A stretch of 32,071 nt of DNA, taken from positions 1 through 32,071 of the forward strand of contig DATJYL010000168.1 in the NCBI GenBank assembly GCA_035499655.1, written 5' to 3'. The notes under the pieces are model-generated. The model was not told the DNA's origin. It saw only the letters and a list, made by a program, of their open reading frames with translations, and did not search any database. Position 1 is the stretch's first letter. Each line of letters begins with the position of its first letter. The translations under genes were made by a program, and so were the position numbers. The stretch is from Pirellulales bacterium. Lineage in GTDB: Bacteria > Planctomycetota > Planctomycetia > Pirellulales > JADZDJ01. Below are positions 1 through 14,712 of the stretch, piece by piece.

Positions 1-533
1 CCCGGCGCAAACCAGGTGGACGTGTGCGCATGGTCGTCTTCAACGGTTCTACTAGTGACCGCGCCTTCAAACATTACGATCAGCCTTTGCGGAGCTTTCA
101 ATTGGTTGAAGTTTTGCACTGAAAAGCCGTCGGACGCGGGATAAGCCACGTACTCGTTAATGACGTAACTCGTGCCACGATTCCCATTCACGTCGGGCTG
201 GACCCGCGGCAATCCCATGGGATCGTCGGGACACAATCGCATGCTGTCGTCGTTTTCGAGATACGGCGCCAAACTGATGATCCACGAATCCGGAACATCG
301 GCATGGTAAGTGCCGGTGGGATCGCCGTGGTATGTCCAGGGAAAGTGACCATGATGGACATTGATGTACTGCGACAGCGCCAAGCCAATTTGGTGCAGAT
401 GACTCAAGCATTCCGATTCTCTTGCCGCCGCACGGGCGTGTTGCACCGCAGGCAACAACAAGCCAATCAGCAAGCCGATGATGGCCATTACGACCAACAA
501 TTCGACCAACGTAAAAGCATTTCGACTGCGCAT
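1..533 (-). CDS. DUF1559-type prepilin-like protein (3' end outside window)
   Basis: The reading frame starts with ATG at 533, 9 bases after a TGGAGG ribosome binding site, and runs off the left edge after about 177 codons, so the C-terminus is missing. Residues 4-30 form a type IV pilin/type II secretion N-terminus: a short basic leader, then the prepilin-peptidase motif [10 protein letters not shown] and a hydrophobic helix ending in LLLPAVQ. The next stretch ([21 protein letters not shown]) matches the conserved start of the DUF1559 family, which is hugely expanded in planctomycetes. These proteins are exported, cleaved by prepilin peptidase and thought to be pseudopilin-like surface proteins; the exact role is unknown. 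The usual GF cleavage site is AF here. Confidence 0.9.
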
Positions 534-703: not shown

Positions 704-1441
704 TCATCCGCGAAACAGCAATCGCGGCGGAGGCACGTCGGGTGGGAAAGACACAGATGAGAATGTCGGGGAAGATATGTTCACCAACTCAACCATCTCG
801 CTGGAAAAACGAACTTGAACCATGGGTGGCGGGGCCAGCGAGACGACTAAGCCTTGCCAGTTTTCGCCCGCCCCGTGGCACTTCAGCGCTTCCAACAGTG
901 AAACGCCGCTGGTGGGCTGGTTTTCCTTGCATGTTTGCGTGTTGGCGCAGCGCTGGCAAGCACAACACGAGCATTCACAAGCCGCAGGCTTACAACCTGA
1001 ACCCTGGCCGGATTGTTCCTGGCAAACGGCCTGTTCCGGAACAGGGGAAGTGCCAACACTGGGACTTGAGTCTTGTGGGCTGGGATCGTGCGGCCAATAG
1101 GCGGCCCATTCGATGCCCTGGGCACGGGCGGCGGCCAACGCGTAATCGGGCGGAATGACGTGGTTTTCTCGGGCCCAAATCAATCGTTCTTCCAACGTCA
1201 TGCAGCAGCAATTTCGCCAGCATTCCTCGGCCGATTGGCATCCGCAACGGTGATTCATGCAGGGATAAGGCTGTCCGGCAGATTTGCGCGCCGGCAAGGG
1301 CAGCGGAATTCCCAGTGCTAAAACCAGATAGCCAAGTGTTACCGTGCAGCGAGAAACCACTTGCGCACGAGTAATATGCGGACGTAGCCAACGCCGCTTC
1401 CAGAGCCGAGCCAGAAAAGCGTGGAACGAACTTCGTGACAT
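704..1441 (-). CDS. Cys-rich putative metal-binding protein with one N-terminal hydrophobic segment
   Basis: A 245-residue protein starting with ATG at 1441, behind an AGGAGG site at 1453-1458. A basic N-terminus is followed by a hydrophobic segment near residues 33-50, which could be a signal anchor. It has 18 cysteines in two clusters: residues 61-80, including a CCC triplet, and residues 140-171, with CxCxCC and CxxC spacings. Between them lies LEERLIWARENHVIPPDYALA, a short helical segment that I recall from planctomycete hypothetical proteins. The cysteine spacing suggests metal or Fe-S binding, but no family with known function is recognised. It is transcribed divergently from another Cys-rich exported protein at 1623, so the two may be co-regulated, possibly by metal or redox state (inference). 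Confidence 0.75.
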   Translation of the reverse strand: MSRSSFHAFLARLWKRRWLRPHITRAQVVSRCTVTLGYLVLALGIPLPLPARKSAGQPYPCMNHRCGCQSAEECWRNCCCMTLEERLIWARENHVIPPDYALAAARAQGIEWAAYWPHDPSPQDSSPSVGTSPVPEQAVCQEQSGQGSGCKPAACECSCCACQRCANTQTCKENQPTSGVSLLEALKCHGAGENWQGLVVSLAPPPMVQVRFSSEMVELVNISSPTFSSVSFPPDVPPPRLLFRG

Positions 1442-1478
1442 TTTTCACAAAGCCTCCTGTGGCGCATTGTGATGATCG

Positions 1479-1511
1479 CCCCCTAGATGTCAATACCCCC
1501 CGAGATGTGAA
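1479..1511. promoter_or_regulatory. Tandem imperfect direct repeat in the divergent promoter of two Cys-rich genes
   Basis: Two copies of a motif CCCCCyrAGATGTsAA lie at 1479-1493 and 1496-1511, with AGATGT cores at 1485 and 1503, an 18-bp period. On the minus strand the first copy contains TTGACA (1493-1488), placed suitably as a -35 element for the 1441 gene, though the -10 (CACAAT at 1471-1466) is weak. Direct repeats of this kind can be activator or sigma-factor sites. This is sequence pattern only. Confidence 0.4.
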
Positions 1512-1622
1512 CGATAAAAAAAGCTTTTCATCGAATGCCTCATCCCAGTAGGCGCATGTTTGCATCTGGGCTAATTTGATGCGATTGATTCGCTGACGTG
1601 CGGAATGATCAAGGAGAAGTTT

Positions 1623-2036
1623 ATGCCCAGCCATCTTTCCCGCCGCGATTTCCACAAGTTGACCTCTGCCGCGCTGGGGGGCATGGCCGCCGGCACGTGG
1701 ATCGGTTGTCATTCCGAATCTAACACCGCCAAGGCTGCCACACCGGAACTCCACACTTGTCGCGGCTTAAATGCTTGCAAGGGCCAAGGCGCTGACGGCA
1801 AAAATGCCTGCGCCGGTCAGGGCACGTGTGCAGCGGTGCATCACGGGTGCGCCCAGCAAAATGATTGCAAACACCAAGGCGGCTGCGGCGAAACGCCAGG
1901 CATGAACGATTGCAAGACAAAAGGGGGCTGCGAAGTGCCCCTCCAATCCACGATGTGGCAGAAAGCACGCACGCAATTTGAAGAACGAATGAAACAGGCC
2001 GGCAAAGAAGTTGGCGCCGCGCCGCCTGCCATGTGA
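1623..2036 (+). CDS. Small Tat-exported Cys-rich protein with CxxxxxC repeats
   Basis: The ATG at 1623 is chosen because AAGGAG at 1611-1616 sits 6 bases ahead; an earlier ATG at 1605 lacks such a site. The 137-residue product begins with SRRDF (residues 6-10) and an Ala/Gly-rich hydrophobic stretch, a twin-arginine signal. The mature part holds cysteines at 46/52, 63/69, 76/82/88 and 97/103, nearly all with C-x5-C spacing in a repeated C(K/R)GxxACKGQG pattern rich in Asn, Gly and Lys. Export through Tat suggests folding or cofactor binding before transport. The motif resembles Cys-rich bufferin-type copper-binding proteins, but no MNIO (DUF692) maturase gene is nearby, so that is only a resemblance. 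Cys29 follows WIG and could be an unusual lipobox. Confidence 0.75.
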   Translation: MPSHLSRRDFHKLTSAALGGMAAGTWIGCHSESNTAKAATPELHTCRGLNACKGQGADGKNACAGQGTCAAVHHGCAQQNDCKHQGGCGETPGMNDCKTKGGCEVPLQSTMWQKARTQFEERMKQAGKEVGAAPPAM

Positions 2037-6738: not shown

Positions 6739-7566
6739 ATGACTTTCGCTACGATACCGTACATGTCTGAACCGTTTGGCACCGTGCCGATTACCTCGGC
6801 GAAGCCGGTTCTTGCAGAATCGGCAGCCTCGCCGTCGATGTCCGCTTTGGAGAATCAACCCTTGGCGGCGACACCCGAACTGCTGGCTTTTTTGGCGGCC
6901 GAAAGCGAAAAGCTGGAGTCGGCCACGCCGCAGGAAATTGTCCGCTGGGCCGTCGAGCATTATTTTCCCAAGCTGACCATGGCCACGGCATTTGGGCCCG
7001 AGGGGTGCGCCATCATTCACATGCTGGCCCAGATCGAGCCGCGGGTACACGTGTTCAATTTGGAAACCGGTTACCAATTTAAGGAAACGCTGGAGCTGCG
7101 CGAAAAAATCAAGCAGCGTTATGGCATCGAAGTGGAATACAAGCGGCCTGACACCACGGTCGAAGTGTATGAAGCGTTGCACGGTGGCCCGCTGTACAAA
7201 ACCAATCCCGACCAGTGCTGCGCCGACCGCAAAGTTAAAGTGTTGAAAGAGGCGGCCCAAGGCTGGCAGGCCTGGATGAGCGGCATCCGCCGCGATCAAA
7301 GCCCGGACCGGGCCAAAGCGCCGATCGTGGGCTGGGACAAAAAGTTCAGTCTCGTGAAAATCAGCCCGCTGGCAAATTGGACCAAGAAAGACATTTGGAA
7401 ACTGATCACCGACGAGAACGTGCCGTACAATCCGCTGCACGACCAGGGTTATCCAAGCATCGGCTGCTGGCCTTGCACGCGGGCCGTGATGTTCGGCGAA
7501 GACGAACGAGCCGGCCGGTGGAGCGGTTTCCAAAAAACCGAGTGCGGTCTACATACCAGTGAGTAG
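6739..7566 (+). CDS. cysH: Assimilatory adenylyl-sulfate (APS/PAPS) reductase with [4Fe-4S] cysteines
   Basis: A 275-residue enzyme that reduces activated sulfate to sulfite with thioredoxin or glutathione as donor. Landmarks: TAFGPEGC (residues 83-90, the SSFGAE-like nucleotide site), FNLETGYQFKET, the cysteine pair 160-161 (QCCADRK) and the pair 243/246 (GCWPCT), which together bind a [4Fe-4S] cluster in APS-type reductases, and catalytic Cys269 in KTECGLH at the C-terminus. Presence of all four cluster cysteines favours APS as substrate and fits the sat gene at 13156 with no APS kinase in view. The N-terminal 40 residues are poorly conserved and the start could be ATG 6763. An Rrf2 regulator follows 113 bases downstream. 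Confidence 0.93.
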   Translation: MTFATIPYMSEPFGTVPITSAKPVLAESAASPSMSALENQPLAATPELLAFLAAESEKLESATPQEIVRWAVEHYFPKLTMATAFGPEGCAIIHMLAQIEPRVHVFNLETGYQFKETLELREKIKQRYGIEVEYKRPDTTVEVYEALHGGPLYKTNPDQCCADRKVKVLKEAAQGWQAWMSGIRRDQSPDRAKAPIVGWDKKFSLVKISPLANWTKKDIWKLITDENVPYNPLHDQGYPSIGCWPCTRAVMFGEDERAGRWSGFQKTECGLHTSE

Positions 7567-7586
7567 GAAACATCAATTTGATTGAG

Positions 7587-7659
7587 CCGCAGAGACGCAG
7601 GGCAAACAAAACTGAATGATTGATCTTTTTGCTTTCTCTGCGACTCAGCGTCTCTGCGG
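7587..7659. repeat. Inverted repeat between cysH and the Rrf2 gene
   Basis: Perfect 12-bp arms CCGCAGAGACGC (7587-7598) and GCGTCTCTGCGG (7648-7659) face each other across 49 bases. The second arm is followed 20 bases later by the Rrf2 start codon. Sequences of the form GCCGCAGAGACGCAGAGA occur as dispersed repeats in many bacterial genomes, so this may be a small repetitive element; an operator or attenuator role is possible. Confidence 0.55.
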
Positions 7660-7679
7660 TGAAAAATGAATTTTACTTT

Positions 7680-8105
7680 ATGAAATTTTCCGCCAAAACC
7701 GAATACGCTTGCCTGGCCGTGCTGGAACTGGCCCGGGCTTATGAAACCGGAGAGCCGGTGCGCATTCGCAGCATTGCCGAGGAGCACGGCATTCCGTCGC
7801 GCTTCCTGGTGCAAATTCTGTTGCAACTGAAAGGCGCCGGACTGGTCAATAGCACCCGCGGCGCGGCGGGCGGGTATCAGCTTGTGCGGGCGCCGGAGGA
7901 AATCACGCTGGAAGAAGTGATGGCCGTGGCCGACGGAAAGGAGAAGTTGCCCAATCCCGCGGCCGCCAAGTCGCCGACTCGCCGGGCACTGCTGAAAGCC
8001 TGGCGCGACGTGGCTATTTCCCGCCAGGAAATGCTCCGCGACATCAGCTTTGCCGATCTCGTGCAGCGGGCCAGCGGCGAAGTGGAACAGATGTATCATA
8101 TCTGA
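7680..8105 (+). CDS. Rrf2-family transcriptional regulator
   Basis: A 141-residue protein beginning at ATG 7680; the MKFSAKTEYAC opening is the canonical Rrf2 N-terminus, so the 20 upstream in-frame codons are excluded. The winged helix covers residues 1-80, with IRSIAEEHGIPSRFLVQILLQLKGAGLVNSTRGAAGGYQLVRAP matching the recognition helix and the GGY wing. The only cysteine is Cys11, so the three-Cys Fe-S cluster of IscR/NsrR types is absent; this is more like CymR, which senses cysteine status through CysK. Its place directly behind cysH makes it a likely regulator of sulfate assimilation (inference). The C-terminal half is a charged dimerisation helix region. Confidence 0.88.
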   Translation: MKFSAKTEYACLAVLELARAYETGEPVRIRSIAEEHGIPSRFLVQILLQLKGAGLVNSTRGAAGGYQLVRAPEEITLEEVMAVADGKEKLPNPAAAKSPTRRALLKAWRDVAISRQEMLRDISFADLVQRASGEVEQMYHI

Positions 8106-13155: not shown

Positions 13156-14418
13156 CTAGGCTTTGCCGGCCATGGCTTCGGCGAGGATTTTGCTGGTGCT
13201 GGGGCGCATGATGCGCGGATCGACCTGCTCGCCCTTGAGGAGCGTGTTGCGGACATCTTTGCCGGAGATGAAGACCGGCTTTTCGTCCTTGTGGCTGTCC
13301 ATGAGATCAACGCGGCCGACGGAATCGTAATAGGCGGCGAAGCCGACTTTGACCGGCTTGATTTTCAGGTCGCCCTTGAGGTTGCTGAAGATTTCCTGGG
13401 CGTCGAAATCACCCCAGATGGGTTTGCCATCGTGATAGGGAGCATCGGCGTGCTTGCGGCCGATGACGATGTCGGTGAAGCCGAAGTTCTGCCGATAAAT
13501 GGCGTGCATGACGGCCTCTTTGGGACCGCCGTAGAACATTTTGATATCCAGGCCGAGGAGGATCACACGGTCGGGCACGCTTTCTTTGCGCGGAGCCCAA
13601 AGGGATTGGTCGCTGTCGCCTTCGCCGAGGCTGCGCTGATCGATGAGGGCCTCGTAGGTGTGCATGCGGACGTCGGCGTAGACATCGTCACCTTTGGTTT
13701 CGCCGATGAGCGGATTTAGCACCGCGCCGGCGTTGTGGCCATCGCGCAGCAGTTTTTCCAGGCCGTACACGAGCGCGTATTCGTGTGCGCGGTGAAGCGG
13801 ATTGCGGGTTTGAAAGGCGACCACGCGGTTCCAGCCCTTGGTGGCCAACAGCTTGCGAACTTCGCGCGGCGGCAGCACGTACTTGCCGAACTTGGGATTT
13901 TTGGGCTGCGGCAACGTGCGGATTTTTCCGCCCAGCAAATGCGTTTTGTCGGCATCGCCTTTGAGGACCATGTCGGCGCCGGGATGATCGTTGCGGTCGG
14001 TCAGATACACCGATTTGAGGTACCGCGGCTTGTCCCACTCGAAAATGTCGGTAATGTCGAGCGTAGCCACAATGTCGCCGGCCGAATTGGTGAGCGCGAC
14101 TTTTTGTCCCTTCTTGAGTGTGGCGGCCAGTTCTTTGGTGAGCGGCAGCGACAGTGGAATGGTCCAGGCGTACAGCTTGCCATTGTGCTCGATGACCGAT
14201 TCGTCCAGCACGCGGTTGAAGGTGGAGGAATCCATGGGGCCAGTGGTCGGACTGAGCGTGCCGTCGCCCCAGCGGTAGACAGTGGACAGATCAGCATCGG
14301 AAACGGGGACTTTGGGCAGCTTGGCGGCTTCGGCCTTGAAGGCGGCGGCCTCGTCGGCGGGCACAGTCAGGTTTACGGGTTCGGTCAGTCCGCCGTGGGG
14401 AGGAAGCAGGTCGGGCAT
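13156..14418 (-). CDS. sat: Sulfate adenylyltransferase (ATP sulfurylase), single-chain type
   Basis: A 420-residue enzyme that makes APS from sulfate and ATP, the first step of sulfate assimilation. ATG 14418 is chosen because GAAGGAAC precedes it and the conserved opening [14 protein letters not shown] follows; upstream codons are unconserved. Landmarks: [24 protein letters not shown], the ATP/sulfate motif [12 protein letters not shown] near residue 203 (QxRNP and HxxH), [17 protein letters not shown], and [14 protein letters not shown]. It ends in a PUA-independent tail, [22 protein letters not shown]. No APS kinase domain is fused. It is the homomeric Sat form, not CysDN, and pairs functionally with cysH at 6739, though the two are not one operon. 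Confidence 0.95.
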
Positions 14419-14712
14419 GGTTCGGTGTTCCTTCCAGAGTGAAACAGGTGGGATTCGCCTAGCGTGAAACCAAACAGTATAGGGATGTTGCGCGCAGGCG
14501 CAAAGATGTGCTAGCAATTCGAGACGATTCAATGAGCCGCCTGCATGATGGCAGACGCTTTCCGCGGCATTGGTAGGTGGAATTGACCTGTGCCAGAAGC
14601 AGCATTTTTGGTACTAACTGCCGGGCGGAAATGGTTTTTGCGGGGGTCCGCGCGCGCTGGGAGTTCCGACCGATTTTGTGGCTAAGTGTTTTCGCAGCAA
14701 GGAAGCTGTATT

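Follow-up and report, generated by a model that had tools for sequence, protein, structure and literature searches.

Two neighbouring genes for Cys-rich proteins, ORF A and ORF B, in a 32,071-nucleotide stretch of DNA from a Pirellulales bacterium (called here the window) probably belong to two separate systems. ORF B would be the precursor of a bufferin-like RiPP, and ORF A a member of a different family that would hold or hand over metal at the cell surface. Judging from its relatives and their neighbourhoods, ORF B is most likely matured in trans, by an enzyme whose gene lies on a different contig of this genome.

The two genes are transcribed back to back. ORF A (704-1441, minus strand) codes for 245 amino acids with 18 Cys and ORF B (1623-2036, plus strand) for 137 with 10, against 4.2 and 2.3 expected from the background of four window proteins. 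The 181 bases between them (1442-1622) carry at each end a Shine-Dalgarno-like sequence recognized by eye, AGGAGG before the start of ORF A and AAGGAG before that of ORF B. The divergent Cys-rich pair described in the original prediction is thus confirmed from the sequence. This gap is weakly conserved between the two congeners that have the arrangement, and the coding flanks align well. Rfam found two tRNAs only over the window. Genes for sulfur assimilation are also present in the window, with a PAPS-reductase-type gene beside an Rrf2 regulator at 6739-8105 and an ATP-sulfurylase-like ORF, identified by eye, at 13156-14532.

ORF B starts with a twin-arginine (Tat) signal, SRRDF, with the RR at residues 7-8 and a score of 21.4 bits against TIGR01409 (cut-off 16.7), followed by a possible lipobox ending at Cys29. 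Both this signal and the repeated C-x5-C had been anticipated and were found. Nine core Cys span residues 46-103 and there is in addition a conserved C-terminal segment. Homologues were found in 22 of the 57 genomes of the order, ORF B being the sole member of its family in its own genome, and nine of its ten Cys are kept in at least 26 of 27 aligned sequences. The family can be described as Tat-signal nine-Cys precursors: the 80 named relatives, mostly from Planctomycetota with a few from Verrucomicrobiota, have the RR-x-F motif in 76 cases, and nine Cys are found in 74 of the 75 with a recognisable core. No relative was found in a scan of viral contigs. An AlphaFold model built with 49 relatives (pLDDT 53) was too poor for a fold search. 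The BufA2 profile NF050166 gave ORF B 19.9 bits (cut-off 60) and seven relatives 17-25 bits. When a profile was made from the B relatives, it matched the CxGxNxCKG / NxCxGQGxC core of BufA2-type precursors of Pseudomonas, Asticcacaulis and Thiothrix. DoxX is a component of bufferin clusters, and two B relatives are fused behind a DoxX-like membrane domain (L065:8340-9446 and L066:8414-9607, minus strand), with an internal RR-x-F segment between the two domains. The fusions named in the part of PMC12452194 available to us do not include one with DoxX.

The neighbourhood of the relatives is more telling than the weak NF050166 match, and together they bear out the resemblance to bufferins suggested at first. 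Of the 80 named relatives, 55 have a gene for an MNIO, an iron enzyme, near B; in 48 of them it is the next gene downstream, and DUF2063 is present in 48, the usual order being B, then MNIO, then DUF2063. One such locus (L256) is that of Tautonia sociabilis GM2012, a culturable planctomycete. The missing maturase and partner genes of the original prediction are missing only locally. The window contains no MNIO, but the genome carries exactly one, on contig C79, and it is of the bufferin type (362.7 bits against NF050167, the NCBI bufferin maturase, cut-off 310) with a DUF2063 gene beside it (L102:1174-2058; PF09836, 67.2 bits). No precursor was recognised beside this MNIO, and the short Cys-containing ORFs found there look, by eye, like frames overlapping long genes. 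ORF B and this MNIO lie on separate contigs, which gives no distance between them. The congener G001 is split likewise, with B on contig C39, MNIO and DUF2063 on C125 and no precursor beside that MNIO. The system of ORF B therefore appears to be fully split.

This separation is a general pattern. B stands without an adjacent MNIO in 25 of the 80 named loci (a few of which end at contig ends), and a bufferin-type MNIO above cut-off was found in 22 of these 25 genomes, some of which may hold a second B beside the MNIO. In the order, a high-scoring MNIO is present in 21 of 22 genomes with B and in none of the 35 without it, at a 350-bit line that was drawn after the scores had been seen; seven of the genomes without B have lower-scoring MNIOs. 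With the curated cut-off, in a sample of 294 genomes of the phylum, a bufferin-type MNIO was found in 41 of 45 genomes with B and in 11 of 249 without (Fisher p about 3e-35, which overstates independence since the genomes are related). The four genomes that have B and lack MNIO in this sample come from assemblies that are 68-84% complete. One genome of the order that is 96% complete (G018) has two B genes, one of them a DoxX fusion, and gave no MNIO match. In another genome, G031, a stretch that matches part of an MNIO and contains an in-frame stop lies beside a B gene (C103:9700-9990), probably a decayed copy, and an intact B-MNIO locus is found on contig C306. The MNIOs of the B loci have an EWDA motif in 48 of 55 cases, whereas of four MNIOs paired with BufA2 three have ERDD and the fourth ERDG. 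This position would correspond to Phe250 of FonB and Asp251 of BufB2 in PMC13097082.

These data also bear on a different view of ORF B, as an unmodified Tat-exported protein similar to metallothioneins, binding metal through plain thiols, whose standalone copy has become independent of the MNIO pathway. The lack of an adjacent MNIO in its genus and the frequency of standalone B genes speak for it, and PMC12452194, in the portion available, allows for standalone precursors that stay unmodified. Nevertheless, we consider it quite unlikely given the near-perfect co-occurrence of B and MNIO at the genome level, the MNIO on C79 that has no other recognised precursor, and the nine core Cys of ORF B, which match those of relatives located inside MNIO operons. 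A bufferin-like precursor matured in trans remains the preferred reading. B would be made in the cytoplasm, where the C79 MNIO with its DUF2063 partner would oxidise some of the nine core Cys in trans, probably to thiooxazoles, the products known from characterised bufferins. Once modified, B would be exported by Tat, possibly anchored through the lipobox, and would buffer a thiophilic metal. By analogy with known bufferins we infer that this metal would most likely be copper.

ORF A has a hydrophobic segment near residues 30-48 and the clusters NCCCM and CECSCCAC, as had been noted at the outset. Its conserved part is the motif C-x4-C-x-C-x5-C-x3-CCC at residues 61-80, to which Cys188 can be added, and the C-terminus is Pro-rich. 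Eight of the 18 Cys are kept in at least 35 of 37 aligned sequences, and the other ten, mostly in the middle cluster, are poorly or partly conserved. Conservation of the Cys among homologues had been set beforehand as a test of the original prediction, and it held for nine Cys in B and for eight of 18 in A. Homologues of A were found in 36 of the 57 genomes of the order and, by a profile search, in 33 of the 294 genomes of the phylum. The aligned A sequences contain no segment conserved well enough to scan the named genomes with it. Pfam-A gave no family for ORF A up to an E value of 1, and its one match in NCBIfam had 11 bits for a cut-off of 400. AlphaFold without an alignment gave a model (pLDDT 47) too poor for a fold search.

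The neighbours of A are more informative. A gene for a DUF1559/N-methyl prepilin-like protein is found within 1.5 kb downstream of A in 30 of 36 loci, compared with three of 36 upstream of A and one of 22 B loci. In the window this gene (1..533, minus strand) is truncated by the contig end at base 1, but matches PF07596 and PF07963 above cut-off and is 67% identical to the gene at the same place in G001. In addition, 12 of 36 loci have downstream of A a gene for a secreted protein whose mature form is predicted to begin with His; none has it upstream (0 of 36), nor do the B control loci (0 of 22), as counted with a strict pattern and with signal cleavage predicted by a simple pattern of our own rather than a trained predictor. 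Several A operons encode DUF4198 proteins, and PepSY_TM, CbiQ and YHS genes are also found near A relatives. Secreted DUF4198 proteins are reported to bind Ni through the N-terminal His (PMC12537917). In the genome studied here, homologues of the HG proteins of the congener are located at the end of contig C26 (up to base 39521 of 39526), the first complete one with a predicted cleavage between VWA and HGFNLSV. From the synteny order of these genes we infer that C26 adjoins the start of the window contig C168. Furthermore, in members of the phylum with small genomes (f62), short A-like proteins of about 145-175 amino acids (L277-L289) adjoin secreted AHG/AHTTV proteins, and some of these loci have a gene for CbiQ, an ABC ATPase or a cobyrinate-synthase-like protein. 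A possible assignment of the f62 AHTTV proteins as YcnI-like was dropped since Pfam gave no match.

As the prepilin gene is the most constant neighbour of A, A might help to export or assemble the DUF1559 prepilin-like protein, with the Cys of A forming structural disulphides rather than binding metal. We regard this as somewhat unlikely: the f62 A-like proteins mostly lack an adjoining prepilin gene, yet keep the AHG/AHTTV-type neighbours and in places the CbiQ or YHS genes, and in the order a secreted N-terminal-His protein or DUF4198 often follows A. In the reading that we favour, A would be a Cys-rich protein, either secreted or anchored in the membrane, and its gene opens an apparent operon that also encodes the prepilin-like protein and the secreted proteins with predicted N-terminal His. 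At the cell surface A would most likely help to retain or pass on a transition metal (Ni/Co or Cu). Metal binding by A is suggested solely through these operon partners, most of whose N-terminal-His proteins have no assigned metal-binding family, and they suggest transition metals in general and not one single metal. The metal handling originally proposed thus gains indirect support for A from its partners, and that of B would follow by extension from characterised bufferins; for both, metal binding and the identity of the metal are putative. Several points weigh against the combined explanation: the BufA2 score of B is well under the cut-off, B has neither the Sec signal nor the six or twelve Cys of that family, G018 has B genes and gave no MNIO match, and the partners of A suggest different metals.

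The proposal of A and B as a conserved module is not supported. The divergent arrangement is found only in the two genomes of the genus, none of the 80 named B loci has an A gene within 6 kb, and the presence of A and B is not significantly associated (p about 0.1). The check for a conserved neighbourhood in related genomes thus gave a negative answer, with one independent exception: in G038, which belongs to a different family of the order, contig C5 carries A, MNIO, DUF2063 and B in line on one strand (L109:7550-10928, minus strand), the only linkage of A to a bufferin seen outside the genus. For about 15 lineages, the chance of two such linkages arising independently is about 2e-4, calculated post hoc and under rough assumptions, and this is what speaks for A and B as one functional module with A acting alongside the bufferin. 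The idea is nonetheless improbable in view of the lack of linkage and of association described above, and of the usual partners of A, which are the prepilin and N-terminal-His genes. A and B share a theme and are not a conserved pair, although they may be functionally related in some lineages. A broader scenario, which we put forward as rather speculative and on balance unlikely, would be that planctomycete and verrucomicrobial bufferins form a Tat-dependent branch. Their nine-Cys precursor would be modified in the cytoplasm, perhaps also loaded with metal and folded there, and exported afterwards, and in some lineages the MNIO gene would lie at a separate locus. The A operon would in this scenario be a new module for relaying metal at the surface, cooperating with the bufferin in some lineages.

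The Tat system carries folded proteins. For this reason a Tat-exported branch, if true, would give a natural and testable answer to the question, raised in the part of PMC12452194 available, of what keeps a precursor that has a signal peptide from being exported before modification. Precursors whose genes lie apart from that of the enzyme are missed when only gene clusters are mined. Operons that in several cases also encode a protein of a published Ni-binding family gain, with A, an uncharacterised Cys-rich member. A literature search found no paper on MNIO together with twin-arginine signals; the supplementary data of two surveys, which fell outside the search, may list such sequences.

Compared with known systems, the DUF4198 Ni binders (PMC12537917) share with the A operons their presence in several of them and the predicted N-terminal His of other operon proteins, but A does not belong to this kind of protein, and no metal-binding domain is assigned to most of the partners, which are of HG/PEP-CTERM type. 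The closest system to B is BufA2 or Buf2 (NF050166; Buf_6/12Cys in PMC12452194 and "Cys-Lys" captophorins in PMC13097082, as named in the portions of both available), with which it shares the CxGxNxCKG and NxCxGQGxC core and the Cys-Lys pairs. The B family has also in common with it the order MNIO then DUF2063 in relatives, the predicted export, a lipobox in some members and DoxX in the system. However, the precursors known as BufA2 or Buf_6/12Cys have a Sec signal and six or twelve Cys according to the accessible part of PMC12452194, and none of four BufA2-type precursors that we checked has RR-x-F, while B has a Tat signal, nine core Cys and an extra conserved C-terminal segment, and its score is under the cut-off. 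The MNIO motif is EWDA on the B side and ERDD on that of BufA2, and in the genus of ORF B the precursor is separated from the MNIO. The standalone bufferin precursors of PMC12452194, as far as its available text describes them, resemble ORF B in having no adjacent MNIO but one elsewhere in the genome; here, though, the lone MNIO-DUF2063 pair is also without a recognised precursor. Because of the differences in signal, number of Cys and enzyme motif, ORF B is classified not as a BufA2 but as a bufferin-like precursor of the wider MNIO-DUF2063 class.
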